From Dehalococcoidia bacterium (lineage in GTDB: Bacteria > Chloroflexota > Dehalococcoidia > CAUJGQ01): a stretch of DNA of 38,759 nt. Of this stretch, positions 1,849 to 35,712 are shown one piece after another. The stretch lies in assembly GCA_035310145.1 (NCBI GenBank), contig DATGEL010000099.1, forward strand, positions 1-38,759, read 5' to 3'. Numbering within the stretch: position 1 is the first letter of the stretch; each line of letters starts with the position of its first letter. The position numbers and the translations under genes were made by a program. The notes below the pieces were generated by a model, which was not told the DNA's origin, made no database searches, and saw only the letters and a list, made by a program, of their open reading frames with translations.

Positions 1849-1878
1849 AGCCCCTCCCCCTGCCCGGACGCGGGCAAC

Positions 1879-1911
1879 AAAAAAGAGATCACGGCCATAC
1901 GGCGTGATCTC
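1879..1911 (-). promoter_or_regulatory. Leader terminator (putative attenuator) of the ABC-F gene
   Basis: On the minus strand a perfect nine-pair stem (1903-1911 with 1885-1893, nine-base loop) runs directly into TTTTTTGTT (1884-1876). This is a textbook intrinsic terminator that works only in the minus direction. No minus-strand gene lies upstream; the next gene (2188-2919) is divergent. The hairpin therefore sits inside the ABC-F leader, about 30 bases before its Shine-Dalgarno sequence. Several antibiotic-resistance ABC-F genes are known to be controlled by ribosome-mediated transcription attenuation, and this layout fits. I could not identify a convincing anti-terminator by eye. A possible extended -10 (TGCTACGCT) lies at about 2059-2067 on the minus strand. 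Confidence 0.68.
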
Positions 1912-1987
1912 CGGCAGATGCATTCGCGGAACGCGGGCGCTGCAGGCCCACCGGTCCAGCCAGGATGAAGCGCGCGGGCGCGGCCAT
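1889..1987 (-). CDS. Possible leader peptide of the ABC-F attenuator
   Basis: A 32-codon open frame starts at ATG 1987, begins MAAPARFILAG and ends AVWP, with its TGA at 1891-1889 inside the terminator stem. A ribosome finishing this frame would cover the hairpin, as expected for ribosome-mediated attenuation. An in-frame ATG at 2011 would give 40 residues. Neither start has a strong Shine-Dalgarno sequence, and the other two frames are also open here (one runs 1991 to 1836, past the ABC-F start), so which frame is translated, if any, is undecided. Confidence 0.3.
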   Translation of the reverse strand: MAAPARFILAGPVGLQRPRSANASAGDHAVWP

Positions 1988-2187
1988 GCATGGCCCGCGC
2001 GTTCGTCCCATCTGCCCCGGCTAGCCGGCCATCGCAACCTCTTCGCTGTACTGCCCTCAGCGTAGCACGCGCCCGCCGTCCTCGCCAGACCGCGTCCGGC
2101 GCCGCGCCGGCGGTTTTCTCATCGCCGGGCCGAACCGGCGGCGCCGTTCCGCTCGTGATCGGATCAGTTGACGCGACGGAGCGTGCC

Positions 2188-2919
2188 ATGAACCCGGGCA
2201 GCATCGACGAGGGCGAGTTCAGTCGCAGCACCTTCTGTGAGCGCCGAATGACTTGCGCGGTCGCCGGCGCCGTGGCGGCGCTGGCTCTGCTGCTCAACGC
2301 CTGCACCGGCGGCAGCGCCGCGAAGCCGAGCGTCACCGGAGCCAACGCCGTCAGTCCCACGGCCACGGCCACGCTTGCCCCGCCGGCCGTCTCGCCAGAA
2401 GCGGCTGCGCCGAGCGCGGCAGGCAGTGCCGGCGTCGCCCCCGTCTTCGCCGCGCCGCGTCCGTCCGCCGCCACGCCTGCCCCGGCGACGCCGGCCGCCA
2501 CGCCGGCAGCGGGCAAGCGCCGCCGACCCGTCGCGGCCGACGCCCAGCAGGTCGTGCTCGACTTCCGGCGGCGGGGCATTCCGCTGGGGCAGACGGTCAG
2601 TCTCACTGCTGCCGACGATCCGGATCAGCTCCTCGGTCAGGTGGGGGGCTATACCAGCAAAACGGTCTTCGCTGACTCACGCCTGGACGATGGCTCGGCC
2701 TCCCCTTCGGTGCAGTCGGGCGGCGCCGTCGAGTTCTTTGCCAGCCAGCGCGACGCGCAGCGCCGCTTCACGCAACTGCTGGCCGCGCAGAAGGGCGCCG
2801 GCCAACCGGAGCAGCTCTTCCACGATGGCGACGTGGTGCTCCGCCTCTCGCCCAGGCTGAAGGCCGACCAGGTGAGCGAATACGAGATCAGCGCGCGGCT
2901 GGCGCTGGCCGGGCGTTGA
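2188..2919 (+). CDS. Putative lipoprotein with Ala/Pro/Thr-rich linker, unknown function
   Basis: A 243-aa product. The ATG at 2188 follows CGGAG at a usual distance and gives a lipoprotein signal: a basic ERR, then a hydrophobic stretch and the lipobox L-N-A-C near residue 40. A later ATG at 2248 would lose the basic residues, so it was not used. Residues of about 45-115 are a low-complexity Ala/Pro/Thr linker, typical of surface lipoproteins. The C-terminal 120 residues form a compact region with motifs such as GGAVEFFASQRDAQRRF and DGDVVLRLSP. I do not recognise a named family. It is divergent from the ABC-F gene and precedes the molybdenum hydroxylase gene by 147 bases, so a link with either is not shown. 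Confidence 0.7.
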   Translation: MNPGSIDEGEFSRSTFCERRMTCAVAGAVAALALLLNACTGGSAAKPSVTGANAVSPTATATLAPPAVSPEAAAPSAAGSAGVAPVFAAPRPSAATPAPATPAATPAAGKRRRPVAADAQQVVLDFRRRGIPLGQTVSLTAADDPDQLLGQVGGYTSKTVFADSRLDDGSASPSVQSGGAVEFFASQRDAQRRFTQLLAAQKGAGQPEQLFHDGDVVLRLSPRLKADQVSEYEISARLALAGR

Positions 2920-3066: not shown

Positions 3067-5412
3067 ATGACGAGCCAGGTCGACCTACCCAAGCTGGTTG
3101 GCGCCCGCGTGAAACGGCGCGAAGACCCGCGGCTGATCACGGGCAACGGCCAGTACACGGACGACATCCAGTTGATGCACGGCCTGCACATGGCGGTGCG
3201 CCGCAGCGAATACGGCCACGCGCGCATCACCCGCGTCGACACCTCGGCGGCGAAGGGCATGCCCGGCGTCGTCGCCGTGCTGACCGCCGACGACCTGACC
3301 GACGTGCTGGGGCCGATGCCCGCCGCGCCGGCCACGCCGGACACGAAGATCGCGCCGCGCAACGTGCTGACCAAAGACAAGGCCCGCCATGTCGGTGATC
3401 CGATCGCGGTGGTCGTGGCCGAGGATCGCTACCTGGCGCGCGACGCGGTGGACGCGATCGAGGTCGAGTTCGAAGAGCTGCCGGCCGTTGTCGATCTCGA
3501 AGCGGCGATGGCGCCCGGGGCGCCGAAGGTACACGACCAGTTCGACGACAACGTCGCCTTCTACTGGACGCTGCATACCGGCGAAGTAGACGAGGCGTTT
3601 GCCAACGCGGGCGTCGTCGTCAAGCAGCGCATGGAGAGCCAGCGTCTGCAAGGCGTGCCGCTGGAGACGCGGGCGATCCTGGCCGACTACCAGCCCGGCG
3701 AAGACCACCTGACGCTCTGGTCCTCGACGCAGGCGCCGCACCTGCTGAAACCGATCATCGGCGGCCTGCTGGGCATGCCGGAGAACCATGTGCGCGTGGT
3801 TGCGCCGGAAGTCGGCGGCGGCTTCGGCGTCAAGGCCGACCTCTATCCCGAGGAGGTGCTCTGCTGCGTGCTCTCCAGGCGGCTGGGCCAGCCGGTGAAG
3901 TACGTGGAGACGCGCTCGGAGAACTTCCAGGCGACGGTGCACGGCCGCGGCCAGCTCGGCGAGTACGAGATCGCGGCCACGCGCGACGGCAAGGTCACCG
4001 GTCTGCGCGTCAAGATCCTCGCCGACCTCGGCGCCTACCAGGGCTTCTTCGGCAACGTCGTACCCACGCTCTCCGGCCTGATGCTGACCGGCGTCTACAC
4101 GATCCCGGCGGTGCACTGCGACATCTACGGCCTCTTCACCAACAAGACCTCGACCGGCGCCTACCGCGGCGCCGGCCGGCCGGAGGCGACCTACTACATC
4201 GAGCGGATGATGGACCTGCTGGCGCGCGAGCTGAACATGGACCCGGTCGAACTGCGCCGGCGCAACCTGATTCCGACCGAAGCGTTCCCGTACCAGACCG
4301 CCTGCGGCATGCTCTACGAGAGCGCGAACTACGGCCCGGCGCTGCAGAAGGCGCTGGAGCTGGTCGGCTACGACCGCGTGCGTGAGCAGCAGCGCGGCGG
4401 GCCGGAGAACGGCAAGTACGTCGGCATCGGCGTCTCGACCTGGACGGAGATCTGCGGCTTCGGCCCCTCGGCGGCACTGCCGGGCGTCGGCGGCTGGGAG
4501 ATGGGCAAGGTCACGATCGAGCGCACGGGCATGATTACCGTGCACACGGGCGCCTCGCCGCACGGCCAGGGCCAGGAGACGAGCTTCGCGCAGATCGTGG
4601 CCGACGAGTTTGGCGTGCCCTTCGAGAACATTCGCGTGATTCACGGCGACACGGACAAGGTCGCGCACGGCGTCGGCACCTTCGGCAGCCGCGGCACCAC
4701 CGTGGGCGGGGCCGCGATCCTGATGTCGATCAACAAGGTCAAAGAGAAGATGAAGAAGTTCGCGGCCAACATGATGGACGCGAACGAGGACGACCTCGAC
4801 GTGAGCGGCGGCCGCGTCTGGGTGAAGGGCTCGCCGGAAAAGGGCGTCTCGATCGGCGAGGTAGCCGCGGCGGCCTACTTCCCCGCCGCCTTCCCACCGG
4901 ACACGGAGCCGGGGCTGGAAGCGACGAGCTACTTCGAGCCGCCGAACTTCGCCTTCCCCTTCGGCGTGCACGCGGCCGTGGTCGAGGTCGACAGCGACAC
5001 CGGCCAAATCGCGCTGAAGAAGTACGTGGCCGTGGACGATTGCGGCGTGGTGATCAGCCCGCTGCTGGTGGCCGGCCAGGTGCACGGCGGCGTGGCGCAG
5101 GGCGTCGGCCAGGCGTTCTACGAAGACGTGGTCTACGACGAGCACGGCCAGCTGATCAGCGGCACGCTGATGGACTACGCCCTGCCGCACGCGGAGGATT
5201 TCCCCACCTTCGAGCTGGACAAGACGGTGACGCCGAACCCGATGAACCCGCTGGGCGCCAAGGGCATCGGCGAGGCGGGCACGATCGCGGCCTCGCCCAC
5301 GGTCGTCAGCGCCGTGGTCGACGCGCTCAAGCCGCTGGGCATCAAGCACATCGACATGCCGCTGAAGCCGGAGCGCGTCTGGCGCACGATCCAGGCGGCC
5401 CGGCCCTCGTGA
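3067..5412 (+). CDS. Xanthine dehydrogenase/CO dehydrogenase family molybdopterin-binding subunit (CoxL-like, form II type)
   Basis: A 781-aa protein of the molybdenum hydroxylase large-subunit family, which oxidises purines, aldehydes, CO or other heteroaromatic compounds at a molybdopterin-cytosine-dinucleotide centre. The N-terminus (RREDPRLITGNGQYTDDI) and the GGGFG motif in EVGGGFGVKADLYPEE are typical. The active-site loop reads AYRGAGR (residues 365-371), the form seen in form II CoxL-like enzymes; genuine form I CO dehydrogenase has AYRCSFR. The catalytic glutamate is in GEAG, Glu736. CO oxidation is therefore unlikely and the substrate is unknown. Start ATG 3067 follows AGGAGG. The FAD (CoxM) and 2Fe-2S (CoxS) subunits that usually accompany it are not in the window. 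A candidate promoter lies at 2999-3027. Confidence 0.9.
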   Translation: MTSQVDLPKLVGARVKRREDPRLITGNGQYTDDIQLMHGLHMAVRRSEYGHARITRVDTSAAKGMPGVVAVLTADDLTDVLGPMPAAPATPDTKIAPRNVLTKDKARHVGDPIAVVVAEDRYLARDAVDAIEVEFEELPAVVDLEAAMAPGAPKVHDQFDDNVAFYWTLHTGEVDEAFANAGVVVKQRMESQRLQGVPLETRAILADYQPGEDHLTLWSSTQAPHLLKPIIGGLLGMPENHVRVVAPEVGGGFGVKADLYPEEVLCCVLSRRLGQPVKYVETRSENFQATVHGRGQLGEYEIAATRDGKVTGLRVKILADLGAYQGFFGNVVPTLSGLMLTGVYTIPAVHCDIYGLFTNKTSTGAYRGAGRPEATYYIERMMDLLARELNMDPVELRRRNLIPTEAFPYQTACGMLYESANYGPALQKALELVGYDRVREQQRGGPENGKYVGIGVSTWTEICGFGPSAALPGVGGWEMGKVTIERTGMITVHTGASPHGQGQETSFAQIVADEFGVPFENIRVIHGDTDKVAHGVGTFGSRGTTVGGAAILMSINKVKEKMKKFAANMMDANEDDLDVSGGRVWVKGSPEKGVSIGEVAAAAYFPAAFPPDTEPGLEATSYFEPPNFAFPFGVHAAVVEVDSDTGQIALKKYVAVDDCGVVISPLLVAGQVHGGVAQGVGQAFYEDVVYDEHGQLISGTLMDYALPHAEDFPTFELDKTVTPNPMNPLGAKGIGEAGTIAASPTVVSAVVDALKPLGIKHIDMPLKPERVWRTIQAARPS

Positions 5413-34429: not shown

Positions 34430-35479
34430 TCACAGGCTCCAGTCGGCGCCGCAGCCGCGGCAGGCAGCCGGCGGGCGGTCCTCGGAGAGCAAAGCCGTGC
34501 GCCAGGCTTGATACCGCTCACCGTTCCAGATCTCGGGCAGGCTCTGCCGCGCCGTGTGGCCAAGCACGATCGAGGCGTACGGCGCCGAGGTGAACGGCGC
34601 CACGCAGCAGGGCAGCACCTGGCCGTTGGCCGTGACATACATCAGCTTCCACGGCCGCATGCAGGCGCGGCGCGGCGCGTTCGGCCCGTCCTCTCCGGCG
34701 ATCTGCTCGGCGAGGCGCACTTCGCCCGAGCCGCGCAGGCTCACGCCAAGCTGCCGCGCCAGCGCCTCCGCCTCGGCGATCGCCGCCGCGTCCGCATCGC
34801 CCGCGTGACCGTAGAGCGACTGATCGGCGCGGGCCAGGCCGCGCTCGGATAAGACGAGCCGTTGCAGATAGACCTCGCCGATACCGCTCGCGGCCGCATG
34901 GCGCACCAGGGCGGGCAGCTCGCCGACGTTGCTGTGCATGCCGGTCATCCACAGCGAGACTTTGGGCGTCAGCGCCTCGCGTTCGGCCTTCGCGGCGGCC
35001 AACAGGCGCAGGTTGGCGAAGATGCGGGCGAAACCGTTGGCGCCGCGCACGCTCTGATACGTCTCCGGCGAGCCGGCGTCTACGCTGACGCGCAACTCGT
35101 CCAGGCCGCTTTCTACCAGCTTGGCCGGCCAGCGGCCGCGCAGCAGCAGGCCGTTGCTGTTGAAGAGCACGTAGGCGCCGCGCGCCTTCAGCTCGCGCAC
35201 CATCTCCGGCAGGTGCCGGTTCAGCAGCGGCTCGCCGATACCGTGCAGCACCACGCGGCGAAGGCGCGGCAACTGGGCGATCAGCGTGTGGAAGCGATCC
35301 ATCGTCAGGTCGGCCGCAGGCTCGGCCATGCCGAAGTATTGCGGACAGGTGCGGCAGCGCAGGTTGCAGCGGTTCGTGACTTCGAGATACAGATCCTCCG
35401 GCAGCTCGGTCACCATTGCCCCACGGCCGTCGTTTGCCGGTGCGGGTCTCGCTGCCGGTGTCTGCGGCGCGTTTACCAA
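34430..35479 (-). CDS. Radical SAM protein with SPASM domain (first gene of the operon)
   Basis: A 349-aa enzyme. The radical SAM cluster ligands are Cys38, Cys42 and Cys45 (CNLRCRTC); a GIGEP motif near 80 and LRVSVDAGSPETY near 130-145 fit the SAM-binding barrel. The C-terminal SPASM-type region (about 265-349) has CMRPWKLMYV, LPCCVAP and CRGCGADW, expected to bind extra 4Fe-4S clusters. The TTG at 35479 was chosen because GGGAGG lies six bases upstream; ATG 35416 is the alternative and has a weak site. SPASM enzymes often modify peptides or oxidise sugars; no precursor peptide was found nearby. Its tight linkage with two glycosyltransferase-like genes favours an envelope substrate. Confidence 0.88.
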   Translation of the reverse strand: MVNAPQTPAARPAPANDGRGAMVTELPEDLYLEVTNRCNLRCRTCPQYFGMAEPAADLTMDRFHTLIAQLPRLRRVVLHGIGEPLLNRHLPEMVRELKARGAYVLFNSNGLLLRGRWPAKLVESGLDELRVSVDAGSPETYQSVRGANGFARIFANLRLLAAAKAEREALTPKVSLWMTGMHSNVGELPALVRHAAASGIGEVYLQRLVLSERGLARADQSLYGHAGDADAAAIAEAEALARQLGVSLRGSGEVRLAEQIAGEDGPNAPRRACMRPWKLMYVTANGQVLPCCVAPFTSAPYASIVLGHTARQSLPEIWNGERYQAWRTALLSEDRPPAACRGCGADWSL

Positions 35480-35540
35480 GAGTACCTCCCTTGTGCCGGG
35501 CGCGGCGCGCCTACCCCTCGTTCCGTACACGAGACCTGTC

Positions 35541-35615
35541 CCGTCCCCGCGGGAAGGGTAGCTGAGGGCTACTGGATCTGCGCAGACCCCGCCCTCTCCG
35601 CGGGGAAAGGACAGC
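35541..35615. repeat. Paired C/G-rich repeat segments in the leader of the radical SAM operon
   Basis: TCCCCGCGGGAAGGGTAGC (about 35544-35562) and TCTCCGCGGGGAAAGGACAGC (about 35595-35615) are similar direct copies about 51 bases apart, each with a CCGCGG core. They lie in the 233-base gap between the Crp gene and the radical SAM gene and resemble the other C/G-rich intergenic palindromes. No gene was found in this gap. Confidence 0.42.
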
Positions 35616-35712
35616 CGAATCGTCTCGTGACAGCGATCGGCCCGCTGCGGCGGCATTTCCCTCCAGCGTAGGCCGACGTTGGGCCGCCGCCATGCCGCTA
35701 TTGGATGAAAAA

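Follow-up and report, generated by a model that had tools for sequence, protein, structure and literature searches.

The leader of about 205 nt that precedes an ABC-F gene in an uncultured Dehalococcoidia bacterium (Chloroflexota) probably functions as a ribosome-mediated transcription attenuator, in which drug-stalled ribosomes would switch the gene on. The gene and its leader are located in the 38,759-nt stretch of DNA that was analyzed as a whole (contig DATGEL010000099.1, here called the window). The case is carried by sequence comparison, which reveals a terminator, a uORF led by a Shine-Dalgarno (SD) sequence, a conserved order of these elements in the leaders of orthologues and a long linker in the clade to which the protein belongs. 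The features are, in the direction of transcription:

2064-2059, minus strand: -10-like hexamer TACGCT with TGC before it, judged from sequence to be a putative leader promoter with its start at about 2052
2042-2038, minus strand: uORF SD AGAGG, 5 nt before the uORF ATG; anti-SD duplex -6.4 kcal/mol
2032-2021, minus strand: tripeptide uORF ATG GCC GGC TAG (Met-Ala-Gly-stop), the presumed ribosome-stall sensor
2020-1950, minus strand: strong hairpin from the uORF stop, candidate anti-antiterminator; -42.6 kcal/mol, z -2.96
1961-1901, minus strand: candidate antiterminator, 1961-1941 with 1922-1901, a weak prediction from the ribosome-constrained fold
1920-1913, minus strand: CATCTGCC, fully complementary to GGCAGATG at 2016-2009, which follows shortly after the uORF stop; an alternative long-range pairing
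1911-1885, minus strand: intrinsic terminator hairpin with 9 perfect pairs and a 9-nt loop
1884-1879, minus strand: T6 tract of the terminator, directly after the stem
1876-1861, minus strand: small hairpin TGCCCG/CGGGCA by the ABC-F SD; -9.3 kcal/mol, z -2.45
1860-1851, minus strand: ABC-F SD GGGGGAGGGG; anti-SD duplex -10.0, the strongest SD of the leader
1848-244, minus strand: ABC-F gene, 534 aa, ribosomal protection-like (NCBIfam NF000355)

The terminator in the ABC-F leader is real. Its upstream arm GAGATCACG (1911-1903, minus strand) pairs with CGTGATCTC (1893-1885) with no mismatch over the 9 pairs, and two extra C-G pairs are possible in the loop. The hairpin folds at -17.5 kcal/mol versus -6.3 in shuffles (z -4.7). 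When both strands were scanned it was the sole perfect 9-pair stem with a T6 tract in the window, and no such site arose when the complete window was shuffled 100 times with dinucleotides preserved. At 71% GC, the window contains two runs of at least six T or A, and of these only the T6 tract stands behind a tight stem. A generic terminator scan that allowed loops of up to 8 nt probably left this site unlisted because of its 9-nt loop. On the plus strand the hairpin is followed by CCGGCAG with no T run, indicating that it can serve minus-strand transcription only. There is also no minus-strand gene upstream of the hairpin, since the next gene (2188-2919, plus strand) is divergent, and a plain terminator of an upstream gene was rejected for this reason. 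The sequence-only reading had claimed a terminator, its action in the direction of the ABC-F gene only, and the lack of an upstream gene needing it, all of which are borne out here. Its placement of the hairpin about 30 bases before the ribosome-binding site needs correction, as 30 nt is the distance from the last T of the tract to the ABC-F ATG (1848) and the SD is reached after 18 nt.

The divergent open reading frame at 2188-2919 codes for a lipoprotein-like product with an LLLNAC box and is without an NCBIfam match. Inside the terminator loop there is a minus-strand ATG at 1898 with an SD-like GGAG, whose frame enters the ABC-F start region; it is probably due to chance. Elsewhere in the window, 3067-5412 (plus strand) codes for a molybdenum hydroxylase large subunit of the glyceraldehyde/CO/xanthine dehydrogenase type that falls under the cut-off of every specific model, and 34430-35656 (minus strand) codes for a radical SAM/SPASM protein that is nearest to TIGR04311 (putative metalloenzyme maturase) and TIGR04317 (tungsten oxidoreductase maturase), with both scores far below cut-off.

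The tripeptide uORF, which the sequence-only reading overlooked, sits 110 nt upstream of the terminator. A tripeptide uORF with an SD is found in 3.6% of shuffles of the window's leader, and one with a TAnnnT hexamer in place as well in 0.1%. These values bear on the reading that the hairpin is a plain terminator against stray minus-strand transcription, with the ABC-F promoter located between hairpin and ribosome-binding site and the uORF there by chance. We regard this reading as very unlikely: the window's antiterminator is not significant (see below), as this reading would have it, but the 30 nt from T tract to start codon are too few for a promoter plus ribosome-binding site, no minus-strand gene lies upstream, the rare combination of uORF, SD and -10 is kept in relatives, and the terminator is conserved at the same position in orthologues. 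Three other candidates in the leader were rejected. A longer uORF running from an ATG at 2011 to the terminator stem has no SD above threshold and is absent in relatives; the frame GTGCTACGCTGA at 2068 shares bases with the -10 and is unsupported; and a T-box or other known riboswitch found no match in Rfam 15, neither at gathering score in the window and in seven related loci nor, credibly, at a relaxed threshold.

In the proposed mechanism, a promoter just upstream of 2050 would start a transcript in which the Met-Ala-Gly uORF comes first. With the uORF freely translated, hairpin 2020-1950 and the terminator with its T6 tract would both form, and most transcripts would end near 1880. If an inhibitor targeting the 50S subunit, or some other obstacle to early elongation, held a ribosome on the uORF, the 5' base of hairpin 2020-1950 would fall within its footprint. 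The stalled ribosome would thus cover the base of this first hairpin, the leader would refold and the terminator would be prevented. Polymerase would then read into the ABC-F gene, whose product would relieve stalled ribosomes. In this scheme we infer three elements: which antiterminator this species uses, what induces the switch and that the gene confers resistance.

Folding of the window's leader gives a less definite picture of this switch. When a ribosome is modelled on the uORF, 1961-1941 is freed and able to pair with 1922-1901, occupying the 5' arm of the terminator. The energy of this pairing is no better than that of shuffles (z 0.14), the stall-dependent fold change has a p value of about 0.06, and the terminator wins at equilibrium in all modelled states (P 0.94), indicating that antitermination in the window would need to be kinetic. 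From modelling, the window's antiterminator is a weak prediction, and a stall-dependent switch in its leader is plausible. A long-range pairing of the strand that follows the uORF with a later strand was rejected: this pairing (GGCAGATG with CATCTGCC in the window, CCGGGCTTAATCTGCG with CGCAGATAATCCCGG in locus L111) catches the eye but is on average no better than shuffles (mean z -0.64 over 17 leaders), and it was therefore left out of the evidence. The case for attenuation stems from the conserved uORF and the terminator, not from the fold.

Comparison with the leaders of orthologous genes provides the conservation. In the nearest (sister) Chloroflexota subclade an SD-led tripeptide uORF is present in 15 of the 15 leaders that have enough upstream sequence, versus 0.4 expected from shuffles, these being counts from related members and not independent events. 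The encoded peptides are MTD, MVD, MRS, MRN, MIK, MLK, MTR and MID, and 12 of the 15 share an RRC third codon with the window. An nAnnnT -10-like hexamer is located 18-30 nt before the uORF in 15 of 16 related leaders, with a mean score of 3.8 versus 1.9 in shuffles. Across the whole clade, 18 of 49 leaders have a tripeptide uORF (1.9 in shuffles) and 35 of 49 have one of 3-8 codons (9.0 in shuffles), with about a third of the clade showing no detectable short uORF. Among the leaders of other ABC-F genes the corresponding numbers are 0 and 3 of 43; the uORF criteria date from after an initial inspection of the leaders, and this control group was treated in the same way. The suggestion in the sequence-only reading that ribosome-mediated attenuation controls this gene is thereby strengthened, as the leader combines a -10 of promoter type with a terminator and a tripeptide uORF behind an SD, and as Chloroflexota orthologues retain the uORF, and in several families the terminator too, while the uORF is absent in other ABC-F leaders. 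Judged from these sequence features, ribosome-mediated attenuation of the window's ABC-F gene is well supported.

Family f104 contributed a further 22 orthologues. Nearly all of their leaders contain a -10, an SD, a uORF encoding MTDxL or a variant of it, and a terminator followed by a T tract, mostly within about 110 nt. When 33 distinct leaders were aligned on the covariance model, 97.6% of the terminator-helix cells proved to be paired and three pairs had compensatory changes on both sides, while slid controls of the whole f104 structure are 40-60% paired. The conserved terminator pairing that the sequence-only reading had named as support is thus found in one large family. In 33 of 33 f104/f133 leaders, a strand lying 12-18 nt downstream of the uORF stop complements the terminator loop and 3' arm at a constant offset, and the letters involved vary by lineage (AGGGCA with TGCCCT, GGAAAGC with GCTTTCC, GGCAG with CTGCC, GGGTAA with TTATCC). 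The mean longest pairing of this strand with the terminator is 5.36 versus 3.99 ± 0.14 (sd) when shuffled. The strand is located just beyond the expected reach of a uORF-held ribosome and would be free when the preceding segment is covered, a layout that suggests an antiterminator.

The covariance model of the f104 leader hit 11 places in 400 Chloroflexota genomes, of which 10 are directly before an ABC-F orthologue. The eleventh is an f104-type leader at L198:1350-1530 (genome G409) before an apparent ABC-F remnant, the remnant having been read by eye. The model does not match the window's leader, with which the family has the layout in common and not the sequence. Five f104 leaders (L146, L147, L139, L153 and L166) have long inserts between antiterminator strand and terminator or between terminator and gene, with uORF and terminator retained.

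Another family of relatives, f33 (L116 and L119-L125; the 350 nt upstream of ABC-F), keeps the tripeptide uORF with a TTG start and has no clear T-tract terminator. In some of these leaders, hairpins resembling CTCCCGCGCGGGAG cover the ABC-F SD, and the strand following the uORF, CACCGGCGAAG, is able to pair with either of two downstream strands. From their sequences, control in the f33 relatives may be exerted on translation instead. We assign a low probability to the analogous reading for the window, that translation attenuation is the main switch, with hairpin 1876-1861 or another structure masking the ABC-F SD and the terminator being secondary. This reading draws on the hairpin beside the SD (z -2.45), on the f33 relatives that keep a uORF with no clear terminator and on cplR, which combines translational and transcriptional attenuation (PMC10201436). 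However, the SD at 1860-1851 lies outside hairpin 1876-1861, and the terminator, itself strong, is retained by many orthologues.

The start of the ABC-F gene is also relevant to where the hairpin acts. The ABC-F frame is open upstream to a TTG at 2037, and an earlier translation start would place the hairpin within coding sequence. This we consider practically negligible, since orthologues begin at the homologue of 1848, the SD serving 1848 is the strongest of the leader (-10.0) and long open frames are to be expected with a GC content of 71%. The upstream start was rejected on the orthologue starts, which match the start codon at 1848.

Regarding the protein itself, it matches NF000355 ('ribosomal protection-like ABC-F') with 390 bits versus a cut-off of 380. 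This model is broad, with ABC-F proteins of another clade also above its cut-off, and thus an above-cut-off match is no proof of resistance function. The second-best NCBIfam model is NF000171 (ARE4; TlrC, CarA, OleB, SrmB), yet its 333.9 bits are far under the cut-off of 800 and do not make the protein an ARE4 member; the ARE4 group is listed for Actinobacteria and Chloroflexi (PMC6723617). Sequence identity of the protein to its closest relatives is just 44-48%. A quick tree of 132 relatives, in which the window's row sits on a long branch, places it in a clade of 51 Chloroflexota proteins (SH-aLRT 96) that is separate from other ABC-F proteins. Measured from the SHD motif to the second Walker A, the linker spans 165 residues in the window and 161-180 (median 168) in the clade, whereas the remaining ABC-F proteins in the tree have a median of 144. 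Compared with other ABC-F proteins of Chloroflexota it is some 20 residues longer, and its first helix has 46 residues in the AlphaFold model. This long linker fits the extended inter-domain linker (ARD) expected of antibiotic-resistance ABC-F proteins (ARE-ABCF). At the E-values applied, the gene was detected in 35 of 120, 3 of 8 and 1 of 15 genomes from three families, a patchy occurrence as expected of a resistance gene. Judged by its sequence, the protein is a probable ribosome-protection ABC-F, and the 'drug-inducible' and 'ribosome protection' parts of the sequence-only reading stay presumptive, NF000355 matching other ABC-F proteins too.

These same data are relevant to the possibility that ribosomes stall on the uORF without drug, such that the leader senses translation stress or starvation and the ABC-F protein is a housekeeping-type factor (EttA/Uup-like). 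EttA and YheS score high against the window protein, NF000355 is not selective for resistance proteins, the MAG uORF is without a known drug-stall motif, and a structure search did not separate resistance from housekeeping ABC-F proteins, with the predicted fold resembling EttA/YbiT and resistance ABC-Fs to a similar degree. We nevertheless consider this unlikely because the protein belongs to a separate clade with a linker 20 residues longer and a patchy occurrence, and because the tiny uORF is found in this clade only and published inducible ABC-F genes use such tripeptides (PMC9226507, PMC10201436).

Drug-responsive attenuation as proposed for the window has counterparts in vmlR and cplR, leaders of like anatomy for which it was demonstrated by experiment (PMC9226507, PMC10201436). 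The 219-nt leader of Bacillus subtilis vmlR contains an MIN uORF, a terminator and, at the SD, a hairpin; lincomycin induction needs the start codon and SD of the uORF, and mutation of the terminator leads to constitutive expression (PMC9226507). The window is similar in having a leader of about 200 nt, an SD-led tripeptide uORF in or beside the first hairpin, a terminator shortly before the gene and a hairpin next to the gene's SD, with hairpin 1876-1861 in the place of SL-4 of vmlR. It differs in its MAG uORF and its Chloroflexota host, no sequence similarity is claimed, and the experiments on lincomycin induction and the antiterminator concern B. subtilis. Clostridioides difficile cplR likewise has a tripeptide uORF and an intrinsic terminator before an ABC-F gene, but the cplR terminator stem masks the SD whereas the terminator of the window ends 18 nt before it. 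Short uORFs in these systems encode MR[I/M] in cplR, MK[L/Q] in VmlR2 and MAGN in LsaA (PMC10201436). Both the window's uORF and that of lsa(A) (consensus MAGN, PMC10201436) begin with Met-Ala-Gly, although the latter has four codons and a likeness of three residues may be chance. The cplR authors proposed that short uORFs answer drugs that block translation just after initiation (PMC10201436), and by analogy the MAG uORF of the window fits this early-elongation type. Thus, this kind of attenuator is already known from Bacillus and Clostridioides resistance genes; in Chloroflexota it is apparently undescribed, as the literature searched contained no paper on uORFs of Chloroflexota ABC-F genes, and it is absent from Rfam.

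We lean slightly towards a broader view, in which the window represents a widespread Chloroflexota family of uORF-controlled attenuators that spans several classes. Such a family would share the same ABC-F clade, uORFs of 3-6 codons with recurring MTD/MTDxL peptides and a common switch layout, with some members using a terminator, others (f33) using only masking of the ribosome-binding site, and the uORF tuned to the drug class. ABC-F protection inducible through a tripeptide uORF has so far been worked out in Firmicutes, and Chloroflexota have few cultured members. The natural uORF variants (MAG, MTD, MVD, MRS, MIK, MTDxL) form a test set for where early-elongation inhibitors stall, and the choice of stall site by these inhibitors is a question for which the cplR authors call for follow-up (PMC10201436). 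The same layout across Chloroflexota would make stalled-ribosome drug sensing on a minimal uORF a general control of the ABC-F family.
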